Part shown: piece after piece, positions 14,957 to 47,037 of the stretch | Layout of the letters: every line of letters starts with the position of its first letter | How positions within the stretch are numbered: the first letter of the stretch is position 1 | From: a virus | Virus record (IMG/VR): IMGVR_UViG_3300032046_000043 | Span: 1 to 47,730 of that record | Length of the DNA stretch: 47,730 nucleotides | Direction: 5' to 3' (one strand) | Notes under the pieces: model-generated | What the model was told of the DNA's origin: nothing | Seen by the model: the letters and a program-made list of their open reading frames with translations, nothing else | Databases searched by the model: none | Position numbers and translations under genes: made by a program

Positions 14957-15577
14957 CTATATCACCTCCTCTAAATTCAACCACTCAGCAGGTTTTATAG
15001 CCAGTTCTCTTATTTTATCTACTTCTAAAAGAAGTTCGTCATATCGTAACGGTATCTTGTATAGATTGGTTTTGCCATGTTTGGTATTAGGCACTCGCCA
15101 TGCTCGCCGTTTGGTGTATACAGACCTATCTGCTGTTGTCAGTTTTAGCTCCTTAATAAGATGTTCAGCTACGATTCTCCACACTTTTATCATACTAACC
15201 ATAGGCTGGGCATCAAATACCTCATAGTGGATCGTAACATGAAAACCTCTATTACCGCTATAATAGACCATAATCTCATCTGGATTTATGTCTATATTAT
15301 AGACAGCTATCAGATGATCTATTAAAGACACGCACTGCTTCCTAGCCAGATCTACATCGGTAGCGCAGTCAAAATCAAACGGGAGATTACACAACTCAAC
15401 CTCATCGTCTATGTGCTCCGAACTGGCGAACTTTTGTATGGTTGTATATATATGGTCTGACTGGTCTTTTATTTTATCAACTATATTCTGAACTTGAGAT
15501 ATATTAACTCTAGACCATTTATAGTGGGTATCTCTAACGGCACGGTGCATATCTACATACTGGAAATCTTCATACAT
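14957..15577 (-). CDS. Archaeo-eukaryotic primase small subunit (PriS-like)
   Basis: 206 residues from the ATG at 15577 (a GTG directly before it is also possible); GGGAG lies upstream. Three AEP motifs are visible: DFD (about 69-71, metal-binding), YYSGNRGFHV (106-115, the S-G-x-x-G-x-H motif), and a PriS-like block of the form D-x-x-V-x-x-x-x-R...R-x-P-x-x-x-H-G-K-T-x-L (about 151-173). The protein is shorter than cellular PriS, so it is a minimal catalytic core. It makes primers with the adjacent PriL-like/MCM protein. No DnaG-type primase is present. Confidence 0.88.
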   Translation of the reverse strand: MYEDFQYVDMHRAVRDTHYKWSRVNISQVQNIVDKIKDQSDHIYTTIQKFASSEHIDDEVELCNLPFDFDCATDVDLARKQCVSLIDHLIAVYNIDINPDEIMVYYSGNRGFHVTIHYEVFDAQPMVSMIKVWRIVAEHLIKELKLTTADRSVYTKRRAWRVPNTKHGKTNLYKIPLRYDELLLEVDKIRELAIKPAEWLNLEEVI

Positions 15578-15583
15578 CACGAT

Positions 15584-16062: not shown

Positions 16063-16944
16063 CTAGGACTCCATTGTTGAAAATAGTTTCATTTGTGATG
16101 TTCTTTCATTAACCTGAGGGTTCCACCACAAAACCTCAGTCCTTTCTGGCTTCTCGCTTGTAGGCATATCTGTTCTGAATGAGCTGTAAGCATGAACTTT
16201 GATCTCCTTGAAGCTCCAATCAAACTCATTTATCAGTATATCCCAATATATATCCGAATGATAGCCCGATAAAATACACATGCCTTTTATATCGGCAGCA
16301 ACATTACATAACTCCACGTGATCGTCATCATCCATCTCGTAATCATATACCTCCTGAGATGATAAATTTCTTGTGCTTTGCACATAAGGCGGATCTAAAT
16401 AAAACAGCGTTTCTGGAGAGTCATATCTGCTTATAAGATCATGATAGTCCAGACATTCAATTACAACTTTTTGCAATCTCTTATGAGCTGGTTGTATTAA
16501 ACTTACCGCAGTTCTCCATGGGCTTGCTTTATTTGATGTCGACGCATAAGAAAAAGCAGAACCAGGGCAAGAGTTGAAAGACGACTTCACAAGAAAAAAG
16601 AACATAGCCGCTTTCTCTAAAACAGATAAACCTACATCCTCTCCTCTGAGAGTCTTTCCATATAGCATTTTATATTTGACAAACTCGGCCCGACTATATG
16701 GAACGCACTCTAAATAGTTAATTAAATCTGTTGGATTATCTCTTATCATTCTATAAAGAGAAACCAGCCACTCATTAATATCGTTATAAACGTCAACCTT
16801 AGATGGATCTTTTCCAAACAGAACTATACCAGACCCTCCAAAAGGCTCAACAAAACAGGTATGAGGGGGTATAAGGTCTAAGATATAATCCACGATGTAG
16901 TGCTTTCCACCGTACCACGAAATTGGCGGGCGCTCATTTCTCAA
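16063..16944 (-). CDS. dam: DNA adenine methylase (Dam, D12 class)
   Basis: 293 residues. WYGGK (10-14) and PFGGSG (34-39) form the S-adenosylmethionine site and DPPY (184-187) is the catalytic motif for adenine-N6 methylation; the order is that of D12-class (Dam/DpnM) enzymes. It starts with TTG overlapping the previous stop (GATTGAG), behind GAGGTGAT. It probably protects phage DNA from host restriction or marks the origin. The target site is not evident; GATC is usual for this class. Confidence 0.88.
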   Translation of the reverse strand: MRNERPPISWYGGKHYIVDYILDLIPPHTCFVEPFGGSGIVLFGKDPSKVDVYNDINEWLVSLYRMIRDNPTDLINYLECVPYSRAEFVKYKMLYGKTLRGEDVGLSVLEKAAMFFFLVKSSFNSCPGSAFSYASTSNKASPWRTAVSLIQPAHKRLQKVVIECLDYHDLISRYDSPETLFYLDPPYVQSTRNLSSQEVYDYEMDDDDHVELCNVAADIKGMCILSGYHSDIYWDILINEFDWSFKEIKVHAYSSFRTDMPTSEKPERTEVLWWNPQVNERTSQMKLFSTMES

Positions 16945-19057: not shown

Positions 19058-19258
19058 TTAACCCCTCCTTAAAACCAACCTGCACCATATAAAATCTATA
19101 TCCACAGGCTCACCCTCTCTTTTGATATTAGCAGCAGAAGTATTAATGCCTCTATCCTCTAACTCTTTGTAATAGTTAGACGTTCTGGCTTTATATTCTT
19201 CTGCCCATTGTTCTTGTCTCCGCGCACGGTCTGCGTCATAATTAGTTGATAAGTTCAT
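19058..19258 (-). CDS. Hypothetical protein, 66 aa
   Basis: Start at the ATG at 19258, 9 bases after a GGAG inside the end of the HAD gene. Basic, Arg/Glu/Tyr-rich helix, then a hydrophobic end. Unknown function; in the operon between HAD and coiled-coil genes. Confidence 0.55.
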   Translation of the reverse strand: MNLSTNYDADRARRQEQWAEEYKARTSNYYKELEDRGINTSAANIKREGEPVDIDFIWCRLVLRRG

Positions 19259-19916
19259 TATAATCATCTCCTACGTCGATAACAGACAATAAAGCCTGAT
19301 ACAGATCTTTAATTCCCGCTTCTGAAATGTGATCTATACGAACTATTCTGTATTGAATAGACTGCGGCACTCTAATCGGCTCCATCTCAACGATCTCAGT
19401 TTCAAGATGGTCTCGGGGCACCAATAATACCTTATCAGCGGACTCCTCTAAACAGCTGTTAGCGTCTATCCCTGCCTGTGTATCGGAGTCGTTATCGCCA
19501 ATCCATATTAGCCTAAAGTCGTTATACTTCTTTGCATCTAACAACGCTATAGCCACTAAAGCGCTTCTTTTGGCATGAGACCTTATAGGATCGTTAGTTA
19601 CGATAGTAGATACCCACCAATCTTGAATTATCTCTGCATATTCTCCCAGCAGCTGGACAACTCTACACCTTTTTAGTAGATCCACATTAAAAAGATGTTT
19701 CCTCTCTTCCTTGTTCTTACCTAAGAGAGTTATCCATGCCTGATTAGTTACAATATGGACGCTTGCATCTAAATTCCTGAGTAAAGTGAAGGCAGGGATA
19801 ACACCCGGTCTTAACTGTACGTCCTGTGGGAATATGTTAAAATACTGCTCCCCAGGCTTGCTTTCATGGTTCTCGATAATAACACCATCTAAATCTAAAC
19901 AAACTACGTGTTTCAT
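19242..19916 (-). CDS. HAD-family phosphatase
   Basis: 224 residues behind GAAAGGAG. DLDGV (8-12) supplies the nucleophile and acid aspartates, IVTNQ (about 55-59) is motif II, and IGDNDSDTQAG (about 138-148) is motif IV. The N-terminus looks like the HisB-N/GmhB group (sugar or histidinol phosphatases) or a polynucleotide 3'-phosphatase. Among DNA genes, nucleotide or DNA 3'-end phosphate removal is plausible; a sugar-phosphate role linked to the distant glycan cassette is an alternative. Confidence 0.75.
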   Translation of the reverse strand: MKHVVCLDLDGVIIENHESKPGEQYFNIFPQDVQLRPGVIPAFTLLRNLDASVHIVTNQAWITLLGKNKEERKHLFNVDLLKRCRVVQLLGEYAEIIQDWWVSTIVTNDPIRSHAKRSALVAIALLDAKKYNDFRLIWIGDNDSDTQAGIDANSCLEESADKVLLVPRDHLETEIVEMEPIRVPQSIQYRIVRIDHISEAGIKDLYQALLSVIDVGDDYNELIN

Positions 19917-23407: not shown

Positions 23408-23426
23408 AAGTTGCGGACTAAGTATA
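23408..23426 (-). promoter_or_regulatory. Conserved 19-bp leader motif, copy 1
   Basis: Differs from the copy at 22930-22948 at one position (G for A). It overlaps the start of the palindromic repeat array and precedes the first leftward gene. Confidence 0.45.
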
Positions 23427-23602
23427 AAGTAATAAAATACTGTTATACAGGAATTGTATAAAGTAATAAAATACTGTTATACAGGAATTGTATAAAGTAA
23501 TAAAATACTGTTATACACATAATTGTATAAAGTAATAAAATACTGTTATACACATAATTGTATAAAGTAATAAAATACTGTTATACAGGAATTGTATAAA
23601 GT
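23422..23602. repeat. Five-copy 34/35-bp palindromic array plus partial sixth
   Basis: Units begin at 23422, 23456, 23490, 23525 and 23560, with a partial unit at 23594. Each has GTATAA at one end and TTATAC at the other around AGTAATAAAATACTG, an imperfect dyad. Units 1, 2 and 5 end in CAGGAATT; 3 and 4 end in CACATAATT. The array lies between the leftward promoter (23622-23650) and its first gene, the place of an operator cluster. Iterons for replication initiation are the alternative. Confidence 0.9.
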
Positions 23603-23621
23603 TTAACATACTGTCAACTCA

Positions 23622-27163: not shown

Positions 27164-27192
27164 TTGACATTATACTTTATATATGGTATAAT
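27164..27192 (+). promoter_or_regulatory. Consensus sigma70 promoter of the rightward virion arm
   Basis: TTGACA (27164-27169), 17-base spacer and TATAAT (27187-27192) are perfect, with GG before the -10. No other strong plus-strand promoter is seen before the next terminator at 35344, so this probably drives the packaging and head genes. About 85 untranslated bases follow before the first ATG. Confidence 0.88.
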
Positions 27193-34503: not shown

Positions 34504-35337
34504 ATGAATAACGAGACTTACTACGTATCATCTCTTAATCTACAAGAAGAGATGCCAGTTAAGTTATGGGAAACGTATTCTGATGCCGATCTAAAGTCTT
34601 TGTCAACTCCAGGACCTGCAGGTATAGCTCCTGGGATGATGAAGTATGTAAATTGCCATTTGGCAAAATACACTGGAGAGTTGAAAAATACCGTTCTAGC
34701 GTTTGGTCCTGTTTTTGTTGCACTCCTTTGTAACAGAAGCGCGGGCGCGTTAGCTCAGGGAGCCTTTACCAGATGGTATGAACTTGGATCTATTACGGTT
34801 ACAGGTGGATCGCTAACAACCGTTACGTTTGCGGCAGGACCTACAGTTGCAAATGAGTCTGTTGGTGATTATGTTACTATTATTGATGATGGTGGCGGTG
34901 TTGGAGCTGCACCAGAGGGTGAGACTAGGCAAATTGTTAAAAATACAACTACATCAATAACCGTCCAACCTGCGTTTTCAGTCGCGCCCGCTAATGGGGA
35001 CACGGCTTATGTGTTCTCTTGTGCTAATATATTAGCGGCGGCCATAGGGACTACAAGAGCAACTGCGTCTGGTGTTGTGCTTACGCCTGATGGTATAGCT
35101 GATAACTATTGGGGTTGGTGTTTATTGAAAGGTAGAGTTGGTTTGCTGGGGAAAGCCTCAACCGCTATAACTGTAAATAAGGCACTTATTTCTGATACTG
35201 GTAGGGTCAACTATTCTGCTAACAACAATCAAGATCTGATAGTGGGTAGAGCCGTGGTCGCTCTAGCTGCAGATTCAGTTAGCGATATGTTTGTTGCCGA
35301 TATTGACGTTATGTCTATACTACAAACTCATAGTTAA
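34504..35337 (+). CDS. Capsid decoration or structural protein, 277 aa
   Basis: Start behind TGGAGG. Gly/Ala/Thr/Val-rich, beta-structured (SITVTGGSLTTVTFAAG...), a composition common for decoration proteins. It directly follows the capsid gene and is followed by a strong terminator, so it is probably made in large amounts with the shell. Confidence 0.55.
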   Translation: MNNETYYVSSLNLQEEMPVKLWETYSDADLKSLSTPGPAGIAPGMMKYVNCHLAKYTGELKNTVLAFGPVFVALLCNRSAGALAQGAFTRWYELGSITVTGGSLTTVTFAAGPTVANESVGDYVTIIDDGGGVGAAPEGETRQIVKNTTTSITVQPAFSVAPANGDTAYVFSCANILAAAIGTTRATASGVVLTPDGIADNYWGWCLLKGRVGLLGKASTAITVNKALISDTGRVNYSANNNQDLIVGRAVVALAADSVSDMFVADIDVMSILQTHS

Positions 35338-35343
35338 ACTAAC

Positions 35344-35366
35344 TAGCCCGCTTCGGCGGGCTATTT
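35344..35366 (+). terminator. Intrinsic terminator after the capsid group
   Basis: TAGCCCGC (35344-35351) and GCGGGCTA (35356-35363) enclose a TTCG tetraloop, followed by TTTCATT. GC-rich 8-bp stem with the extra-stable loop; it lies 6 bases after the stop of the decoration gene and may attenuate transcription into the tail and glycan genes. Confidence 0.9.
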
Positions 35367-35388: not shown

Positions 35389-35967
35389 ATGTCAGAAACA
35401 GCTATACAAAGTATTCAAGATCTGGTTGAACAGGATCAGTATTCTACACCAGAACGTAAAATAGTAAAGATGGGATCTACTGATGTAGGAGATCTTTTTG
35501 GAGAGGAGATTAAGTTAGAAGGTCTAAAAAAGATAATAGCAATACCGCTATATTTGGAGAGACCAATTAAGGTAGGTACCGATAATGGGGTTTTGCATGT
35601 TGCTATAAATAGACCCCCACAAGAAATAGATCCAGATATATACTATCCAACAAAAAAAATGAGGGTAACTCATACAAGGTTAGATGAGTTGGATTATGCT
35701 CCGATAGACGCATGGAAAGGATTTCCTCTATTTAATAGCGACGGGTCTATTGTATATCTTAGGGGAGCAGCGATGATTCAGATGTTTTTTATACAGATAT
35801 CTGTTGAAAGTCTAACCGAACAAGAAGAGTGTCAATATGTTGATATACCCCCGATCAAAGGTTCTGTGATATTAGAGCGAATGAAAGCCAGAGAGATGGT
35901 TGGCAGTATTTATAGTTCTGCTACTCGCAGGAGAGTAGAGGAAGATGAGGACACTGTTGAGTTATGA
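35389..35967 (+). CDS. Hypothetical structural-region protein, 192 aa
   Basis: Start behind CAGGGGG. Mixed alpha/beta with an acidic C-terminus (RRRVEEDEDTVEL). No motif recognised. It overlaps the next gene by 4 bases and lies between capsid and fibre-like genes, so a head-completion or decoration role is possible. Confidence 0.55.
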   Translation: MSETAIQSIQDLVEQDQYSTPERKIVKMGSTDVGDLFGEEIKLEGLKKIIAIPLYLERPIKVGTDNGVLHVAINRPPQEIDPDIYYPTKKMRVTHTRLDELDYAPIDAWKGFPLFNSDGSIVYLRGAAMIQMFFIQISVESLTEQEECQYVDIPPIKGSVILERMKAREMVGSIYSSATRRRVEEDEDTVEL

Positions 35968-36431
35968 AACTATCTGATAGAATAAAACTTTATGGCGGTA
36001 TTGTCCTGAGAAAAAATGAGCAAGAGTTCTATGTTCCTAACGTAGTGACCACTATTGGGAAACATAGGCTTGCTAGCCACTGCGCTAATAATGCTTCTTC
36101 AAACTATTGGTTTTCTCATGTAGCGTTTGGTATTGGGACAGATATAGCATCCACCGAGGATCTTGCGCTAACTTCCGAGTTTTATAGAGTAGCATTTAGT
36201 TCTGTATTTAGTGCAGGCCCTACTGTTTTTGGAGAGGTTATTATAACTGGTAATTTAATAGACGCCTATTTAAGTGTTGTGTTAGGTTCTGGCGCTTATA
36301 GTATATATGAAATGGGTTTGTTAGATGCGTTGTCTGGCGGTAATTTGATATGCAGGCAGACGTTGCCGACGGCTTGGACTATAACTGGAAATGAGGAGTT
36401 AGAGGTATTATGGGGCGTAACAATGCTATGA
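35964..36431 (+). CDS. Fibre-like virion protein, paralogue A
   Basis: 155 residues. The pattern (VAFGIGT near residue 51, then STEDLALTSEFYR, ITGNL, YSIYEMGLLDALSGGNLI, final beta strands) is shared with the proteins at 46022 and 46564 (VAxGTG-x...-T-x-LE-x-E, I-x-EAGxFN, AMFxxxxF). All three appear to be one family of small beta-structured fibre or collar proteins. It is the last virion gene before the glycan cassette. Confidence 0.6.
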   Translation: MKLSDRIKLYGGIVLRKNEQEFYVPNVVTTIGKHRLASHCANNASSNYWFSHVAFGIGTDIASTEDLALTSEFYRVAFSSVFSAGPTVFGEVIITGNLIDAYLSVVLGSGAYSIYEMGLLDALSGGNLICRQTLPTAWTITGNEELEVLWGVTML

Positions 36432-37441
36432 TGATTAATGAGGTTGTAGAAGAAGAGCACGAGCAACTTGAAATCTTGCCTATTAGGAGACGATATAGTC
36501 AGCCTGAAGGCCCTGCTTCTCATATATACGTTAGACCTGTTTCTGGTTTTGGAGATGCAGTTATGTTACGGCCTGCTATAGTTGCGAATATGATTAAATA
36601 TCCAGATGATAAACACACTATTTTTTCAGTTAGTCCATTTTTGGATATCTACAACGATATAGATGGATTGACAATAGTTGATACGCCTGGAGCCAGGTTA
36701 GATGATAAAATACAGTGTATAGAAGATAATGCTAGGCGTGATGATATACATTATAACGTATATAATACCTGCGCTTTGTATGAGACTAAAAATCAACCAT
36801 ATTATATTATAAATAACAATGGTAGCTCTAAAGCGGTACCTAGCGGCAAGCATATTATATTGTCTCGTCAGGAGATTTGGGGGAATGTAGTCGGTGTTGA
36901 TTTTGATATTAATAACTATAAAGTGAAATTCTCGGATGAAGAACTGGAAAAGGCCGATTATTATAAACACTATGGTAGATATATGTTTTTGCACATGGAG
37001 TCGGCTGATATATGGAGGAGTTATATATACAGACAATCGTTAGTTGATTATTTTGCCAAGAGATATGATGGGTATGTATTTGTTATGGATAGAGGTTTTA
37101 AGTATTTTGGGAGGTGTAAAAATGTTGTAACGTTTGATGATATGCCTATAAGGGATATGTGGGTTATTATAAGTAACGCTACGTTGATGGTTGGTGTAGA
37201 CTCCGCCGGCGTCCATCTTGCTGGTAGCGTTGAGGTTCCCACGTTTGGATTGTTCGGGCCTACCGATCCGAAGATGCGTTTGTTATATAAGAAAGTAGGA
37301 TGGATAGATAGATTTTCTAGAATAAGAAGTTGCAGGCAACCTTGCTGGTATCTACCTTGCAAACACCTTAGTTGTTTAAGATCTATTACTCCTAGATTTA
37401 TTTATAATAAAGTCAAAAAGACTTTTGGAGACTATCTCTAA
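36410..37441 (+). CDS. Glycosyltransferase, GT9/heptosyltransferase-like
   Basis: 343 residues; overlaps the previous gene by 22 bases. GFGDAVMLRPAI (about residues 44-55) is the N-terminal GT-B loop, and MVGVDSAGVHLAGSVEVPTFGLFGPTDP (about 261-288) matches the nucleotide-sugar site of GT9 enzymes (DSGxxHLAxALGxPxxxLFGPTxP). An acidic N-terminal extension of about 30 residues is unusual. GT9 members transfer heptose-like sugars to lipopolysaccharide or similar glycans. First gene of the glycan cassette. Confidence 0.8.
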   Translation: MGRNNAMMINEVVEEEHEQLEILPIRRRYSQPEGPASHIYVRPVSGFGDAVMLRPAIVANMIKYPDDKHTIFSVSPFLDIYNDIDGLTIVDTPGARLDDKIQCIEDNARRDDIHYNVYNTCALYETKNQPYYIINNNGSSKAVPSGKHIILSRQEIWGNVVGVDFDINNYKVKFSDEELEKADYYKHYGRYMFLHMESADIWRSYIYRQSLVDYFAKRYDGYVFVMDRGFKYFGRCKNVVTFDDMPIRDMWVIISNATLMVGVDSAGVHLAGSVEVPTFGLFGPTDPKMRLLYKKVGWIDRFSRIRSCRQPCWYLPCKHLSCLRSITPRFIYNKVKKTFGDYL

Positions 37442-38124
37442 TGAGAATACATATTGTAAAAGATTCTGCTATAAACAAGAGGCTTGAAAATATAGTAGAG
37501 CCACTAGAAAAAAATGATATTCTTGATCTTGGTTCGGGGATGGATACTGGTAAATTCCTTCGTTTAGATATTGATAAGAACACTAATCCTGATTTTCACA
37601 TGGATCTTAGAGCGTTCTGCGGTATAGCTCCTTACGATAAAGACTTATATCGGTATTGTGATGTGAGATTGTTAGATCGTCAGTTTAATGTTATAAGAGC
37701 TATACACTTTTTAGAACATATAGAGTGGATATACCAAGAGACAATTTTGTCTCAACTTAAAACTATGTTAATCGGTGAGGGGTGTCTATTTATTGAAGTT
37801 CCTAGTTTGAGATACATAATTGATATGTATAATAAACAGATTGACGGTAAGTTGTTAAAGGGCAAGTTATCATCTTTTCCTGATGGTGAGTATACTTTTT
37901 CCGATAGCGATCCTATGAATATCTATAAGTGGTTAAACTTCAGGATATTCAGTGGTTGTTCGCCTGGCGATAATCATAAATGCCTGTATGATATATACTC
38001 GCTACATTACGCACTAGAAAAAATTGGGTTTGAACATATAATACTATCCAATGAATCCACTATTAAGTGTCTGGCATTTGCTCCTGAATCAGCGGAATAT
38101 CTTGATATAGAGTTGAGGAGGTAG
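37441..38124 (+). CDS. Class I SAM-dependent methyltransferase 1
   Basis: 227 residues, start directly at the previous stop. ILDLGSGMDTGKFLRLDID (about 28-46) is the SAM-binding motif I region, HFLEH (about 89-93) and GCLFIEVPSLRYI (about 115-127) are the later core motifs. Similar methyltransferases modify sugars in capsule or O-antigen clusters. A cassette partner of the neighbouring transferases. Confidence 0.75.
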   Translation: MRIHIVKDSAINKRLENIVEPLEKNDILDLGSGMDTGKFLRLDIDKNTNPDFHMDLRAFCGIAPYDKDLYRYCDVRLLDRQFNVIRAIHFLEHIEWIYQETILSQLKTMLIGEGCLFIEVPSLRYIIDMYNKQIDGKLLKGKLSSFPDGEYTFSDSDPMNIYKWLNFRIFSGCSPGDNHKCLYDIYSLHYALEKIGFEHIILSNESTIKCLAFAPESAEYLDIELRR

Positions 38125-38128
38125 AGAT

Positions 38129-38611
38129 ATGAAACTCAATCTTGGATGTGGTAAAGATATAAAAGATGGGTTTTGGAATATAGACGCCGTTTATAGTGAT
38201 GGTGTTGACGCCGTGTTGGATCTATCAGAAAATGAGATTCCATTTAATGAAGTTGATTATATAAACTGTCAAGATTTTCTGGAGCATTTGTATAAAGATA
38301 AGCAAAGATGGTTTCTTGAGTCTTGTTATAAGAAATTAAAGGTCGGAGGCAAGATATACATACAGATACCAGACATGGAGGTTCTATCTAAAAGATATTG
38401 TAAGGTATTAGAGTGTCCTACCTCCATACAACACGATCTTAATGGTCAGCAATTAGCAGAGTCTTTATATGGTAATTCGGGGATTTGGGACTCTCATAAG
38501 TGGGGATATGATAAATACACTCTCCGAGAGATTATGGAGTCTATTGGATTTGTTATTGAGTCTATAGGATCTGATGGGGGGTCTAATCTATTATGTCTAG
38601 CGATAAAATAA
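38129..38611 (+). CDS. Class I SAM-dependent methyltransferase 2
   Basis: 160 residues behind GAGGAGG. MKLNLGCGKDIKDGFWNID starts the protein, the common beginning of small predicted SAM methyltransferases in surface-glycan clusters; DFLEHLYKD and GGKIYIQIPDM follow. Probably a sugar methylase. It overlaps the next gene by 19 bases. Confidence 0.78.
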   Translation: MKLNLGCGKDIKDGFWNIDAVYSDGVDAVLDLSENEIPFNEVDYINCQDFLEHLYKDKQRWFLESCYKKLKVGGKIYIQIPDMEVLSKRYCKVLECPTSIQHDLNGQQLAESLYGNSGIWDSHKWGYDKYTLREIMESIGFVIESIGSDGGSNLLCLAIK

Positions 38612-39504
38612 AAGCCTACATTCCCTGCGGCGGTGGTCTTGGAGATGTTATTCAGGTTTATATGTCAAATCCTCATAATCATTATGAATCAATGATGAGG
38701 GATAGACCAGAAGAGTTCCCGACCTCTATAAACTTCTCGTCTTTATGGTTTCGCAGACTAGAAGATTTTAAGGAACGAAACCCGCAATCTAGTGTTATAG
38801 TTAAGGCTATGTGTCATAATCCTACTGTTGCGGAATTATTTAAGTATCATCCGTATATTGATCGTGTTGATTTAATGGATCATAACCCGACAGAGAATCC
38901 AGAATGGTGGAGAGAGGACTATGATGGATATAAATATATCTGTAATATAGAAGATGGCGAGATGTCTTATGAGAAATATACCGCATCCAAACTAAAAATA
39001 TATTTAGATTACCATGAGAAGTGCCATGCAGATCTTATAATTGGCAACGGGAAGTATATAGTAATTCATCCGTTTGCTGGATGTAAACATAGAGAGGTTG
39101 TTGGAGTTGATGTGTATAATAAACTCTCTGACAGGTTTATAGATGCTGGATATAGAGTAATAGTTGTTGGTGGTAAACATGAAAAATATCCAAGAGAAAC
39201 GTCTAATAGGTTTTGTAACCTAACTGGCTATTCTGTGAGAGTCGCTCTGTATCTTATTCTAAATTCTTTTGGTTTTGTTGGAACACACAGCTCTATGATA
39301 ATGCCTGCATGGTGGTCAAGGAGGAAGTGTGTGTGCATAGTGCCTAAAACTCATGATAACAAGCAGACGACTTGGGAAGAGTTTATTAATTCTGGTAATC
39401 CTACAACCTGGGGATTTAAGCAGTCTTTTAATAAAACTATCATAACAGAACGAAACGCTGCGCTGGATTATAACTCTATCGTGAGGTGGATAGATGTTTC
39501 CTAG
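38593..39504 (+). CDS. GT-B glycosyltransferase, GT9-like
   Basis: 303 residues. CGGGLGDVIQVYM (about 13-25) is a GT9-type N-terminal loop; YIVIHPFAGCKHREV (about 154-168) resembles the GT9 acceptor-side P-loop text, and GFVGTHSSMIMPAWW (about 232-246) the donor-site DSG...H segment with THS in place of DSG. Distant GT9 relative; donor unknown. Confidence 0.7.
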   Translation: MSSDKIKAYIPCGGGLGDVIQVYMSNPHNHYESMMRDRPEEFPTSINFSSLWFRRLEDFKERNPQSSVIVKAMCHNPTVAELFKYHPYIDRVDLMDHNPTENPEWWREDYDGYKYICNIEDGEMSYEKYTASKLKIYLDYHEKCHADLIIGNGKYIVIHPFAGCKHREVVGVDVYNKLSDRFIDAGYRVIVVGGKHEKYPRETSNRFCNLTGYSVRVALYLILNSFGFVGTHSSMIMPAWWSRRKCVCIVPKTHDNKQTTWEEFINSGNPTTWGFKQSFNKTIITERNAALDYNSIVRWIDVS

Positions 39505-40111
39505 CGATATCGAGTTTGATAGATTATATGATACTGTAAAAAACAACTCTATATTATCAAAAGACAGGTTGCTATCTCTTTATAGTGTTGCGTTATATTG
39601 TAACTCTTTGTATGGGGATTTTGCGGAAGTTGGATGCTATAAAGGAGGGACGTCTTATCTGATTGCGTCCGTTATGGACATTAGAAAACAACTCTTTGCA
39701 TTTGACTCTTTTCAGGGGTTATCTGAGCCTACAGATCATGATAGATATACAGATGGTAGATTTCAAGCTAGCAAAGGGATGACAAAAGCAAATAAAGATT
39801 TGACCTTTAATTTTTTATCTGTATTTGGTGATAGAGTTCAAGTATATGATGGATGGATTAAAGATACACTATCGAATGTCGCTAACAATAAGTTTAGTTT
39901 GGTTTATATAGACGTTGATCTATATGAGCCAACAAAATTGGCAACAGAGTTCTTCTGGAATAGAATTGTTAGTGGCGGGTATATTATATATGATGATTAT
40001 ATGTGGGGATCTACGATAGGGGTTACTAGATATATTAATGATAGTTTTCCAGACAAATTTTTGTTTAACCATTATTTTGTATATCCACAACTAGGAATAA
40101 GGAAACCATGA
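39494..40111 (+). CDS. TylF/MycF-like sugar O-methyltransferase
   Basis: 205 residues, overlapping the previous gene. GDFAEVGCYKGGTSYLIA (about 40-57) is the SAM motif of the macrocin O-methyltransferase family, LFAFDSFQGLSEPT (about 67-80) its acid loop, and VYIDVDLYEPT (about 137-147) plus GGYIIYDDYMW (about 157-167) give the metal-binding aspartates. Family members methylate sugar hydroxyls on glycans or macrolides. Confidence 0.82.
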   Translation: MFPSDIEFDRLYDTVKNNSILSKDRLLSLYSVALYCNSLYGDFAEVGCYKGGTSYLIASVMDIRKQLFAFDSFQGLSEPTDHDRYTDGRFQASKGMTKANKDLTFNFLSVFGDRVQVYDGWIKDTLSNVANNKFSLVYIDVDLYEPTKLATEFFWNRIVSGGYIIYDDYMWGSTIGVTRYINDSFPDKFLFNHYFVYPQLGIRKP

Positions 40112-40872
40112 AGGTTTTGGCAGTTATAAGATGTGCTAATAATTTTGCACCATTAGCAGAGAGATGTAGAGCGTCATTTAGGTATTTTCATCCAGACATA
40201 GAAGTAGAGTGTGCTTATGCGGAGAATTGGCGTAAGCTTATATCAACGATGAAGATTGGTGGACTTGGTATATATAAAGATTTTATGTTGACCGCTACTT
40301 TTGTCGGCTATCTCCGTATGCTGACAGAGGGATATGACCTTATAATTATGCTAGATTCAGATGTTGTTGTTACGGGCAGATTGGATGAAATGCTTGTGGA
40401 TGATTATGATATTGGCGTGAGCCACAGTATTCAACCAAAATTTTATAACGCTGGTATATGGTCAACTAGGTCGAGTCAATTTATAAAAGAGTATTATGAC
40501 TGGGATGTTAATACTCACATGGACGAAAACTGGATATTTGTTCAGTTGGTTCATTATTATGAACAATACCGTAAAGATGTCAGGATTAAGGTTCTTGATG
40601 ATAAGGATGTTTGGTATAACGAACGATCAAGACAGTGGTGGAATAGATTAAGAGTTGAAAATGATAAATTATATACCCCTGATAGAGAAGTAAAGATACT
40701 ACATTGGGCAGGTGGAATGGGTTTAGGTGTTGAGAAAAGGATGTCCTGCTCTTTATTTTCTGATGAAGCAAAACAATGGCTGAACAAAATAACTGGCACT
40801 ACCACCTTTACCGATTATGATGGAATAGAGTTTGGAGAGTTTATTAATAATACTTATAAGGGGTTGGAATAA
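40108..40872 (+). CDS. GT-A-fold glycosyltransferase, GT8-like
   Basis: 254 residues behind ATAAGGAAACC. LTEGYDLIIMLDSDVVVTGRLDEML (about 72-96) contains the DxD metal-binding motif of GT-A enzymes; AGIWSTRS (about 115-122) and KILHWAGG (about 194-201) correspond to the GT8-type NAGV and HxxGxxKPW regions. Likely transfers a nucleotide sugar, retaining type. Donor unknown. Confidence 0.72.
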   Translation: MKVLAVIRCANNFAPLAERCRASFRYFHPDIEVECAYAENWRKLISTMKIGGLGIYKDFMLTATFVGYLRMLTEGYDLIIMLDSDVVVTGRLDEMLVDDYDIGVSHSIQPKFYNAGIWSTRSSQFIKEYYDWDVNTHMDENWIFVQLVHYYEQYRKDVRIKVLDDKDVWYNERSRQWWNRLRVENDKLYTPDREVKILHWAGGMGLGVEKRMSCSLFSDEAKQWLNKITGTTTFTDYDGIEFGEFINNTYKGLE

Positions 40873-41393
40873 TGGTTTTTATACACATGACTAGACCAAA
40901 TTTGGATAATGTTGCCGATGTGGTGTTACCTGAAGGATATACTATAAGAACATACAAAGATGGCGAAGAGGATAAGTGGATATCTGTAATAAATATGACC
41001 TTTACTGATGGATGGAATAGAGATCAGTTTCGTAGAGAGATGCTTAATCCTGTTGAATATAAGGGTGATAATATATTCTTTGCGGAGTTTAATGGTGAGG
41101 TTATCGGAACTATATGCGCCTGGGTGTTGATTGACAATGAACTCGGCTGGCAGCACATGATGGGTGTTATGTGCGGTCATAATGGAAAAGGAATAGGTTA
41201 TGCCTTGGGTCTAACTGCGTTGCATTACTTTAAGGATCATGGATTTAAGAGGGTTAATGCCGTAACTTATCCAGATAGACTATCGGCTATAAAGGTTTAC
41301 CTTAGTATTGGTTTTGTGCCTATGTATCAAGAGAGCGATCAGGCGGTATGGAGTAAGGTGTTTACAGATCTAAAAAGGCGTATATATACATGA
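40872..41393 (+). CDS. GNAT acetyltransferase
   Basis: 173 residues behind AAGGGG. NGEVIGTICAW (about 75-85) and GKGIGYALGLTALHYFKDHG (about 105-124) are motifs of the acetyl-CoA-binding GNAT core; the final AIKVYLSIGFVPMYQ is the usual YxxxGF end. In this cassette it probably N- or O-acetylates a sugar. Confidence 0.82.
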   Translation: MVFIHMTRPNLDNVADVVLPEGYTIRTYKDGEEDKWISVINMTFTDGWNRDQFRREMLNPVEYKGDNIFFAEFNGEVIGTICAWVLIDNELGWQHMMGVMCGHNGKGIGYALGLTALHYFKDHGFKRVNAVTYPDRLSAIKVYLSIGFVPMYQESDQAVWSKVFTDLKRRIYT

Positions 41394-42295
41394 TCAAGAT
41401 ATTATCTGCCGCATACCACATGAATATAGGTGATCGTAAATCTGCAAGATTGTTAAAGGGATATATAGACACTATTAACAATCATGAGTCAATTTTGTAT
41501 GGATATGACGGGACCTGTCTATCAAGCAGGGAAGAGGTGGAAAAGTTTTGTGCTGATACAGACGCTATTATAATTGGCGCTGGTGGTATTTTTCATAACG
41601 CTAACTATAATCAAGTTTTTTATTTTACTGATCCAGAGTTGTATAAATATATTCCCTGCTCTTTAATAATCATGGCAACGGGATTTAATCAGGATTATGA
41701 TAGTGTAGGATTTAGTGATCATCAAGAAGAGATATTGCAAGCTGAGTTAGGACGAGCAGACTTGATAGGTATGAGAACGGAAAATGATAGATATCTAGCA
41801 ATATCTTACGGCGCGGATAAGTCTAAGACCTTTGTTTGTCCTGATCCTTTGCTTTTTATAGGTTATAATTCTGGAATCTTTGATAAAATTGTAGCGTCTC
41901 TTTGGGTAGATGACTGGAAAGAGTCTATAAAAAGAAACTTATCTGGATATGATTTTGTATTTATTAATCATGAAGATACTACATTTAGGTTTAGTCAGTA
42001 CGCTGAATGTGATTTTGTTATAACTAATAGATTTCATGGGCAGTTATTATCCTTTGCTTATAATAAACCATGTTTTAGTATAGAGTCTAATATCAAACAT
42101 AGATTTGCCAGAGAGTTTTTATATACAACAAATTTGCAACATTGGACTGAAGATGATAGCGATTTTCTATCTAGCTTCCAGAGATTTTTAATAGATAAAG
42201 AAAATATGAGATATTATATACACGGAAGATTAGTTGAGTTAAAAAATATATTCGGCAGTTTTTTATTGAAAATTGAGAAGGTATTAAATGACTAA
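41390..42295 (+). CDS. Polysaccharide pyruvyl transferase
   Basis: 301 residues, overlapping the acetyltransferase by 4 bases. NIGDRKSARLLKGYI (about 11-25), IIIGAGGIFHN (about 62-72), GMRTENDRYL (about 126-135), CPDPLLF (about 149-155) and ITNRFHGQLLSFAYNKPCFSI (about 206-226) are the motif series of PS_pyruv_trans proteins such as CsaB. They attach pyruvate ketals from phosphoenolpyruvate to glycans, giving negative charge, and in Gram-positives create anchoring sites for surface-layer proteins. Last enzyme of the cassette. Confidence 0.85.
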   Translation: MIKILSAAYHMNIGDRKSARLLKGYIDTINNHESILYGYDGTCLSSREEVEKFCADTDAIIIGAGGIFHNANYNQVFYFTDPELYKYIPCSLIIMATGFNQDYDSVGFSDHQEEILQAELGRADLIGMRTENDRYLAISYGADKSKTFVCPDPLLFIGYNSGIFDKIVASLWVDDWKESIKRNLSGYDFVFINHEDTTFRFSQYAECDFVITNRFHGQLLSFAYNKPCFSIESNIKHRFAREFLYTTNLQHWTEDDSDFLSSFQRFLIDKENMRYYIHGRLVELKNIFGSFLLKIEKVLND

Positions 42296-42531: not shown

Positions 42532-42551
42532 CTAATTAAAGGAGATTGGCG

Positions 42552-42982
42552 ATGACAACAGAAGAAAAATTTTGGCGCAAGGTTGATATTAAAGAGGAGA
42601 ACGAGTGCTGGGAGTGGACTGCGAGTAAAGACAGAAAGGGATACGGAGCTTTTGGTTTAGATCTGCGGATATTAAGGGCGCATAGGGTTGCGTATGAATT
42701 AACCTATGGACATATACCAAATGGGTTGTGTGTATTGCATAGGTGCGATAATAGGGGTTGTGTGAATCCGCATCATCTTTTTTGGGAACACAGAAGGATA
42801 ATATTAGAGATATGGTTATAAAAGGCAGACATAATTTAGCAAAATTAACAAAAGAAGATGTTATAATAATTCAGGATATGTATAGTTGCGGTATGACTCA
42901 AAAAGAGATCGGTAGAGCCTTTGGAGTATCGCATGTCGCTATTTCGTTATCGCTAAATCGGATTACATGGAATTATGAATAG
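42552..42982 (+). pseudogene. HNH homing endonuclease, interrupted by a 1-base frameshift
   Basis: ATG at 42552 behind AAAGGAG. Residues 1-77 contain AHRVAYELTYGHIPNGLC and LHRCDNRGCVNPHHLF, the HNH/zinc core. The frame then ends early (stop at 42821). In the -1 frame the family text continues directly: LGTQKDNIRDMVIKGRHN, then a helix-turn-helix (MTQKEIGRAFGVSHVAISL), to 42982. The switch falls on six T and G (42778-42784), so a programmed -1 frameshift would restore a 143-residue enzyme; a T-run deletion is the alternative. Confidence 0.75.
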
Positions 42983-43012
42983 TTTTATTAATAATAAAAG
43001 AAGGTGATTATC

Positions 43013-43711
43013 ATGCTAACCCATCAGATCGTAGATCGTGTTCAATCATTAATAGAAGATAGTGCTTATTGGACTTCTGCCCGTATTAAGACTCTAATTA
43101 ATATGTGCAAGGATAATATTTCAGAACACTTTGGAGTTCTTTGTTCTGGTTTTAACGAGTTTGATTCTGTTGTAGGGCAACAGTCTTATATGATACCTAT
43201 GGATTTTGTTAAATTGGAGTTGTTGTTTTGGAATAGCGGCGAGAAGTTGACTCCTGCTAATTATTCTGACCCTAAGAAAATAGCAGATCTGACGTCTGAT
43301 TTGGATGAGACTGGAGTTCCAGAATACTGGTATCTTTGGGGTAAATATGACGTTCCAGAGTTATGGATCTATCCAACATTTGCGTCTATTTATACAGTTC
43401 AGATGTGGTACTGGAGAACTATACCTGACATAGTTAATGATAATGACGAACCTATACTACCTAGGGGGTGGCACAATGACATAGCCGAGTATTGTAGAAG
43501 GCAAATCTGGCTGGAGGACGAGACCAGACAATACTCCCAGCAGATGTTTGATATTTGGTGGGAGTCTAGACTACTTAAAATGCAGATGGCGCAAGATTCT
43601 CAAATACCAAACGCAGAGATGTTTTCGTTTGGCAACTTTGACGATCTAATGCCCGGTGTCGGCGAAGGGATTGGTATTAGAATTAATACTAACGATGGTG
43701 TGATATGGTAG
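43013..43711 (+). CDS. Podoviral tail adaptor (head-tail connector)
   Basis: 232 residues from the ATG at 43013, placed 5 bases after AAGGTGA; an upstream GTG at 43004 lies inside that site. SLIEDSAYWTSARIKTLIN at the start, then FDSVVGQQSYMIPMDFVKLE and PEYWYLWGKYDVPELWIYPTF, resembles the phage adaptor family (P22 gp4, T7 gp11-like), which seals the portal and binds the nozzle. Confidence 0.7.
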   Translation: MLTHQIVDRVQSLIEDSAYWTSARIKTLINMCKDNISEHFGVLCSGFNEFDSVVGQQSYMIPMDFVKLELLFWNSGEKLTPANYSDPKKIADLTSDLDETGVPEYWYLWGKYDVPELWIYPTFASIYTVQMWYWRTIPDIVNDNDEPILPRGWHNDIAEYCRRQIWLEDETRQYSQQMFDIWWESRLLKMQMAQDSQIPNAEMFSFGNFDDLMPGVGEGIGIRINTNDGVIW

Positions 43712-45842: not shown

Positions 45843-46043
45843 GCCCCTAATTTAAGACCGAGAAAAGTTCCAACTGGAAAAGAGCAGATGAGTTTGAAAA
45901 AGGTGCAGTGGGTAAGAATAAGACGGGGACCGTTGGATACTGGCGGAGACCCTTATAAGGATACACAAATGACTAAATCGCAGTCCGAAGGGATGACTAG
46001 AGCGAAACAAGGAGATATAAGATGGATATTAGAGAATACCTAG
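45837..46043 (+). CDS. Small basic protein, 68 aa
   Basis: ATG behind AGGAGGATAGACC. Lys/Arg rich with MTKSQSEGMTRAKQGD. The end overlaps the next gene by 22 bases. No family recognised. Confidence 0.5.
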   Translation: MLAPNLRPRKVPTGKEQMSLKKVQWVRIRRGPLDTGGDPYKDTQMTKSQSEGMTRAKQGDIRWILENT

Positions 46044-46561
46044 ACGAGCCAGATAAAAGATATATGGGTATGATTAAGGATATACGAGATAAGTTTGATC
46101 TAAAAGGCAAGATTGGTCTATTAATCTTTGATAAAGATCCTCGTATATATGAAGATGCAAAACTAAAACAAGATCCTGTTGATATAAGTAACACTATCAC
46201 GGTTCTTGGTGATGAGATGGTTGCCGATAAGATGTCAGGAGGGTCGCCAACTCTACCAACTCACATGGCGGCTGGAACAGGGACTCCATCGCCAAATTCT
46301 TCTGCAGCCACAACTCTTGGGACAGAACTTGTTAGAGTTGCACTAGACTCTACAGCGCAAGGAACTGGTGCAAATGATAATGATGTTATATGGACATGCA
46401 CGTTCGGCCCTGCTGTGGGAACCGGCGCGTGGACAGAGGCTGGTATTTTCAATGCTGGATCCAACGGTGTTATGTTCTGCTTTACAACGTTCCTAGTTGT
46501 CAATAAAGCCGCTGGAGATACTATTGTAATAATCTGGACACTAACCTGTGGAGCTAGTTAA
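46022..46561 (+). CDS. Fibre-like virion protein, paralogue B
   Basis: 179 residues behind AAGGAG. A helical N-terminus (REYLDEPDKRYMGMIKDIRDKF) precedes the shared domain: MAAGTGTPSPNSSAATTLGTELVRV, then AWTEAGIFNA, VMFCFTTFLVVNKAAGDT. This links it to the proteins at 35964 and 46564. Probably a tail or head fibre base. Confidence 0.6.
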   Translation: MDIREYLDEPDKRYMGMIKDIRDKFDLKGKIGLLIFDKDPRIYEDAKLKQDPVDISNTITVLGDEMVADKMSGGSPTLPTHMAAGTGTPSPNSSAATTLGTELVRVALDSTAQGTGANDNDVIWTCTFGPAVGTGAWTEAGIFNAGSNGVMFCFTTFLVVNKAAGDTIVIIWTLTCGAS

Positions 46562-46563
46562 TT

Positions 46564-47037
46564 ATGCAACTACATGATAGTTTTGATATAGTAGGTATAT
46601 TGAATATAAAACTAATAAATGAGTACGGGATCATCTTACTTGATAAGAATATTCCAAACCAAATATGTGATGGCGCCTGCGATCTTATTGCGTTCTGGGA
46701 TGCCAATAGTGGATGGGAATTTACTTCGTTTAGTTATGTCGGAATAGGAACTCTTAGTGGGGGTAAAACTCAAACATCTACTCATTTAGAGAATCAGGCG
46801 GCTAGAAAACTATGTGATACTATTGCGCAGGGATCTGCGGCTAACAGCAACGTTGTAACTAAGATAGCGGCTTTTGGTGCTTCTTATGGCGCTATAGCCA
46901 TTAGGGAAGCAGGTATGTTTAATCATATATCCGCAGGCGCTATGTTCGCATATCAAGACTTTGCAGTTGTTAATAAGGCGGCTAGTGATATATTTCAAGT
47001 TACATGGACTGTTAGATACGGGCCTGTGCAGAGTTAG
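46564..47037 (+). CDS. Fibre-like virion protein, paralogue C
   Basis: 157 residues, start 3 bases after the previous stop. SYVGIGTLSGGKTQTSTHLENQ, AIREAGMFNH and AMFAYQDFAVVNKAASD mirror paralogue B, so the two adjacent genes are a tandem duplication that has diverged. Beta-rich fold; fibre or collar role inferred. Confidence 0.6.
   Translation: MQLHDSFDIVGILNIKLINEYGIILLDKNIPNQICDGACDLIAFWDANSGWEFTSFSYVGIGTLSGGKTQTSTHLENQAARKLCDTIAQGSAANSNVVTKIAAFGASYGAIAIREAGMFNHISAGAMFAYQDFAVVNKAASDIFQVTWTVRYGPVQS

Follow-up and report, generated by a model that had tools for sequence, protein, structure and literature searches.

The eight-gene cassette

The IMG/VR virus record IMGVR_UViG_3300032046_000043, whose full 47,730 bases are called the window here, ends in a 127-nt direct terminal repeat and is therefore probably a complete, circularly assembled phage genome. 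Its virion operon runs rightward through TerL, a portal-like gene, the major capsid protein, structural proteins, a collar-fibre-like protein, a cassette of eight putative glycan-modification genes, an HNH endonuclease gene, an adaptor, a tail protein and two further collar-fibre-like genes. An earlier reading of the letters alone (the sequence-only reading) had placed eight genes, coupled head to tail, at 36410-42295, and the open reading frames (ORFs) bear out their place, strand and coupling. All eight, c1 to c8, lie on the plus strand; c1 shares 22 nt with the end of the fibre-like gene, and the eight are joined by overlaps of 1, 19, 11, 4, 1 and 4 bases plus one 4-base gap. No transmembrane-like segment was found in any of the eight proteins (highest 19-residue hydropathy, 1.44).

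Scores for c1, c5, c7 and c8 exceed the Pfam cut-offs, those for c2 and c3 fall below them, and c4 and c6 have no Pfam family. The first gene, c1 (36410-37441), encodes a GT9 (heptosyltransferase-family) glycosyltransferase that matches PF01075 (1.9e-8; 34.4 bits against a curated cut-off of 22) and, weakly, NCBIfam heptosyltransferase models; among annotated phages it found one weak partial match and nothing else. The product of c4 (38593-39504) has no Pfam match, and its AF2 model (pLDDT 67) has GT9 structures as its top Foldseek matches: heptosyltransferase II (1.4e-8), a GT9 protein, WaaC and TibC. Identity in the fold alignments with the bacterial heptosyltransferases (WaaC, WaaF, TibC) is about 10-14%. 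Since the model matches these structures, c4 can be called GT9-like by predicted fold only, with no profile above cut-off, and both GT9-like enzymes that had been proposed stand. The proposed GT-A-like glycosyltransferase, c6 (40108-40872), is probable and GT8-like; its model is poor (pLDDT 54), with Foldseek matches to the LH3 glycosyltransferase domain (8e-5) and LgtC (GT8; 5e-4) and with a PBCV-1 capsid glycosyltransferase ranked lower, and a D-x-D-like motif is conserved in the alignment. The assignment is plausible but not proven.

Two class I methyltransferases had also been named. Family matches agree, although at scores below the Pfam cut-off: c2 (37441-38124), an S-adenosylmethionine-dependent class I enzyme with counterparts in the same place in relatives, lies just under it with Methyltransf_23 (2.3e-5), and the small c3 (38129-38611) matches Methyltransf_12/11 weakly. 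The remaining three assignments hold above cut-off. The TylF-family sugar O-methyltransferase c5 (39494-40111) scores 79.6 bits against a cut-off of 23 (2.9e-22), its acidic motifs D-x-D and DDY align with NovP, and its nearest proteins in the PDB are NovP and mycinamicin III 3''-O-methyltransferase (MycF-type), with CalS11 more distant. The GNAT acetyltransferase c7 (40872-41393) matches Acetyltransf_1 (1.6e-12). Finally, c8 (41390-42295) belongs to the polysaccharide pyruvyltransferase family (PS_pyruv_trans, 1.3e-13; 51.9 bits against 25.3), carries an R-F-H-G motif that is invariant across three phages, and has a weak CsaB match. Profile and fold searches thus placed the members in glycan-modifying families and not in unrelated ones. 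Neither c8 nor c6 nor the GT9 of a relative had a match among annotated phages, and PDB sequence searches with c8, c1 and c7 returned nothing useful.

Related phages and cassette composition

Relatives were collected by IMG/VR scans that rely on short conserved peptides, so relatives are missed, and all those found are metagenomic. Six form a core group with the window: G001 (3300028176_000006), G002 (3300027863_000008), G003 (3300032797_000048), G004 (3300033991_000022), G005 (3300035698_004489), whose metagenome is an Antarctic-lake co-assembly (PMC8542988), and G006 (3300024520_004530). A seventh, G007 (3300009285_005054), is more distant. Searched by itself, the capsid protein retrieved no relative from viral_contigs or from annotated phages, and two-row profiles were needed. 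A 5-kb contig, L104 (IMGVR_UViG_3300031834_001072), has the TerL (61%) and portal (53%) closest to those of the window among those found and is too short to show a cassette. Two other loci, L015 and L016, were rejected as relatives: their one resemblance is a distant GT-A, which lies in a sugar cluster unrelated to this one.

Gene-neighbourhood comparison showed that related phages keep a cassette in the same slot, flanked in six of six core relatives by a collar-fibre-like gene and the adaptor. In the window the 5' border is the collar-fibre-like gene at 35964-36431 (+; phrog_5417, 7.2e-11) and the 3' border the adaptor-like head-tail protein gene at 43004-43711 (+; phrog_399 and phrog_10775). 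Both borders agree with the sequence-only reading, except that an HNH endonuclease gene (42546-42982, +; phrog_1872, 6.8e-28), split into two ORFs by a broken frame, intervenes between c8 and the adaptor. The two halves are in a single frame in relatives. Intact HNH genes were also seen in G003, one beside the fibre-like gene and another after a HAD-cupin gene.

GT9 is the first gene of the cassette in all relatives. With MT for methyltransferase, GTA for the GT-A-like enzyme and PPT for pyruvyltransferase, the cassette of the window reads GT9-MT-MT160-GT9like-TylF-GTA-GNAT-PPT. That of G001 is the same minus GNAT, which makes c7 particular to the window within the group, and G002 has GT9-MT-MT160-GT9like-PPT; in both phages the cassette crosses the contig ends, so that its continuity assumes circular genomes, and in G001 the ends showed no overlap. 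G003 carries GT9-MT-GT9like-MT-TylF-GTA. In G004, G005 and G006 the counterparts of c3 and c4 are fused, which argues that the two act together. These three begin with GT9-MT-[MT160+GT9like] and continue with a 197-aa ORF (methyltransferase-like by eye) in G004, with TylF-MT24, ORFs of 302 aa and 194 aa that have no assigned family, and a second MT24 in G005, and with TylF-sulfotransferase-MT24 in G006 (sulfotransferase, 7.4e-8).

It is thus the 3' part of the cassette that varies, among pyruvyltransferase, sulfotransferase, TylF and other methyltransferases. Pyruvyltransferase genes occur in three of the seven core-group phages (the window, G001 and G002), and judged by gene content pyruvylation does not extend to the whole group. 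Pyruvate and sulfate groups each make a glycan more negatively charged, and the respective transferase genes lie in the variable 3' part of different phages, which suggests that the two serve as interchangeable caps.

A genome scan with the GT-A gene gave no match. With the c3 methyltransferase as query, the scan retained 80 loci spread over many phyla, the best of them in Patescibacteria (38-39%). None of these loci had another cassette gene in its neighbourhood; they therefore point to no cellular donor, and we claim no host. No plasmid matched when the methyltransferase of a relative was used as query.

Exchange of cassette genes between lineages

The core proteins (TerL, portal, capsid, the head protein encoded at 34504 and the fibre-like protein) are 27-41% identical between the window and G001-G003, and 46-69% identical among those three. 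Between the window and G001 core-gene identity is 27-36%, while the cassette proteins reach 68% (c3), 64% (c4), 59% (c5) and 57% (c8). The corresponding values between G001 and its core-closer relatives are lower, at 57%, 47%, 44% and 41%. One gene, c6, departs from this pattern, with 52% between the window and G001 against 65% between G001 and G003. The core tree rejects a clade of the window and G001 (p-AU 0.0009), as does the c1 tree (p-AU 0.004); the long branch of the window in both makes its placement there less sure. In the c3+c4 tree the window falls inside the G001/G002 group (100/99), where G001 as its sister (83/86) is not decisive, and the path from the window to G001 is 0.59, compared with 3.0 in the core. 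From these conflicting trees, identities and path lengths, c1 seems to be an anchor that was inherited vertically and diverged with the core genes, and much of the cassette beyond it, including the middle block, has moved between lineages.

The same data bear on whether the cassette is a passive insertion, moron-like or decaying cargo without function for the phage. A GC content of 32-39% in much of the cassette, against 37-45% in the major head genes, and the flanking HNH gene would fit such an origin. We nevertheless find it highly improbable: the slot and the leading genes are the same in highly diverged phages, all frames are open, and c1 co-diverges with the core genes.

A possible link to the heptose pathway

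The sequence-only reading had noted that no sugar-nucleotide synthesis gene is present and had proposed that the set decorates an existing target without making its own sugar. The first statement is true of the window cassette, but the relatives carry genes related to the heptose pathway, and the proposal has to be qualified, since several of them encode part of the route to a heptose donor. Beside TerL, G004 carries relatives of the HldE kinase (1.6e-65) and of GmhB (2.4e-41) and a cupin, and G001 has an HldE-kinase-like gene (2.9e-31). In G001 and G003 a GmhB-like HAD domain fused to a mannose-6-phosphate-isomerase-type cupin directly follows the adaptor. The cassette slot of G007 holds a PfkB kinase and a relative of the HldE nucleotidyltransferase (2.7e-37), and G005 has a nucleotidyltransferase similar to the latter. 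In the window, an ORF on the minus strand at 19242-19916 is a weak HAD-IIIA/histidinol-phosphatase-type candidate that aligns locally with the G001 HAD-cupin protein, and it is possibly a remnant link to the pathway. Together with the GT9 enzymes, these genes suggest a heptose-type donor sugar, which would come from the host where the phage has no pathway genes.

Proposed function and target

On balance, and with no great margin of confidence, we think it likely that the locus is a modular glycan-assembly cassette in the late virion operon that glycosylates the phage's own structural proteins. A differently composed set kept at the same spot in at least six relatives points to a glycan that is swappable, probably on the phage's own particles and less likely on the host surface. 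The sequence-only reading had named both targets, host glycan and virion. Sequence cannot separate the two, but the late-operon position and coupling of the genes, their soluble enzymes and a precedent in mycobacteriophages favour virion decoration. In cluster O (Corndog-type) mycobacteriophages, an O-methyltransferase and glycosyltransferases are reported to modify the capsid and tail-tube proteins (PMC11600133). There too the virion operon contains, between the genes for portal and capsid protease, an O-methyltransferase of the c5 family (30% identical to c5) with glycosyltransferases after it, and the window and its six core relatives likewise have glycosyltransferase genes inside theirs. 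The Corndog-type set differs in its operon position, in having fewer genes and in belonging to unrelated phages, and no GT9, pyruvyl-, acetyl- or sulfotransferase was seen in the region read. In the uncultured podovirus ctKR88 (MW202524), too, glycosyltransferase and methyltransferase genes stand in a row, upstream of the gene for a phage stabilization protein, but its enzymes are others, with a 32% local match for one methyltransferase only. Two further papers were set aside as precedents, the one on Thanatos because it concerns host lipopolysaccharide (LPS) and the one on DLP3 because its idea is unproven.

As to mechanism, c1 would start the glycan with a heptose-type sugar, drawn from the ADP-heptose of the host or, for some of the relatives, made with the help of phage enzymes. 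The glycan would be extended by c4 together with the c3 methyltransferase, and by c6; c2 and c5 would methylate it, c7 would acetylate it, and c8 may cap it with a pyruvate ketal. Modification would take place during virion assembly, and the block after c1 and c2 would be swapped between phages like a serotype locus, altering the exposed glycan. More tentatively, we propose the complete picture of a heptose-started, methylated, pyruvate- or sulfate-capped virion glycan whose enzymes are coupled to collar-fibre expression and whose distal cassette part is swapped, a phage counterpart of a serotype locus that varies virion surface chemistry.

Several points weigh against virion glycosylation. 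What is known of GT9 enzymes and pyruvyltransferases comes mostly from the envelope glycans of bacteria. All heptose-pathway matches lie below curated cut-offs, GmhA was looked for and not found in any relative, and the window's own candidate for the pathway is one weak HAD protein. That virion proteins are the acceptor, which proteins these are, which sugar is donated, in what order the steps occur and what the phage gains are matters that we infer, and the late timing of expression is read from gene position. Comparable gene clusters of jumbo cyanophages have moreover been published as changing the host polysaccharide (PMC7824862).

The main alternative is that the cassette alters a host surface glycan (LPS core, O-chain or capsule) in the infected cell, so that competitors cannot adsorb or released virions do not stick to debris. 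GT9 enzymes act on the LPS core in bacteria. Pyruvyltransferases act on envelope polysaccharides, and c8 has its weak CsaB match. The jumbo cyanophage clusters, read as host polysaccharide modification in a 2021 survey (PMC7824862), resemble the present group in combining glycosyltransferases with sugar-nucleotide genes (PfkB kinase, nucleotidyltransferase, cupin) and in being polymorphic between related viruses; theirs are large and in jumbo phages, whereas the set described here is short and in the virion operon. Host-surface modification seems to us rather unlikely, since in all core relatives the genes sit among the structural genes of that operon and the cassette has no flippase, polymerase or membrane glycosyltransferase, unlike Gtr seroconversion systems. 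For the Gtr-type O-antigen seroconversion genes (GtrA flippase, bactoprenol GtrB and membrane GtrC) no Pfam match was found in the cassette.

Phage glycosyltransferases can also modify DNA bases, as in T4, and the substrate of the present enzymes might be the bases of the phage DNA, or a small molecule, instead of a surface glycan. The window does encode a DNA methyltransferase (16063-16944), and the cyanophage clusters have also been read as possible secondary-metabolite systems. We judge such a role improbable given the late-operon position and the resemblance of several of the enzymes to envelope-glycan or sugar O-methyl enzymes; no base hydroxylase or modified-base gene was found among the left-arm ORFs scanned, which were part of the total.

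Phage-encoded virion glycosylation is documented, as far as the surveyed literature shows, in few phages, mostly of mycobacteria, and phages of the present group have no close cultivated relative. If our preferred reading of virion glycosylation is true, elaborate glycans occur on virions more widely and undergo diversifying exchange, with a conserved slot, exchangeable pyruvate or sulfate caps and methyl groups, and a probable heptose start. The cassette also offers a defined gene set for asking what virion glycans do outside the animal immune system.

Flanking and other features

A terminator-like hairpin with an 8-bp stem (35344-35363, +) follows the 34504 head-protein gene at the boundary between the head genes and the fibre and cassette genes. 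A hairpin lies at the same place in G001-G006, making seven phages with the window, and this kept position suggests that the fibre and cassette genes may reach lower expression than the head genes. Upstream of the virion operon, a sigma-70-type promoter-like site (27164-27192, +) was recognised by consensus match alone, at 12 of 12 positions.

The large repetitive fibre mentioned in the sequence-only reading exists, with the correction that its gene spans the contig ends (47211-47730 joined to 1-2178, +). Its 856-aa product, with Asp-box-like repeats toward the N terminus and a stalk that contains long repeats, is a candidate receptor-binding protein and a possible glycan acceptor. The three collar-fibre-like proteins (35964-36431, 46022-46561 and 46564-47037, all +) are related to one another. 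The one encoded at 46022 shows even identity across the group (46-61%; 46-52% with the window) and is unusually well kept compared with other virion proteins.

Between the early and late genes, a sparse region holds an AT-rich tandem array (23422-23614; 34-bp unit, about 5.6 copies), possibly an origin or a regulatory site. An ORF on the minus strand at 14957-15580 has weak matches to the archaeal/eukaryotic-type primase small subunit (PriS) and adjoins a helicase/primase-like gene, whose G001 counterpart is a single fused protein.

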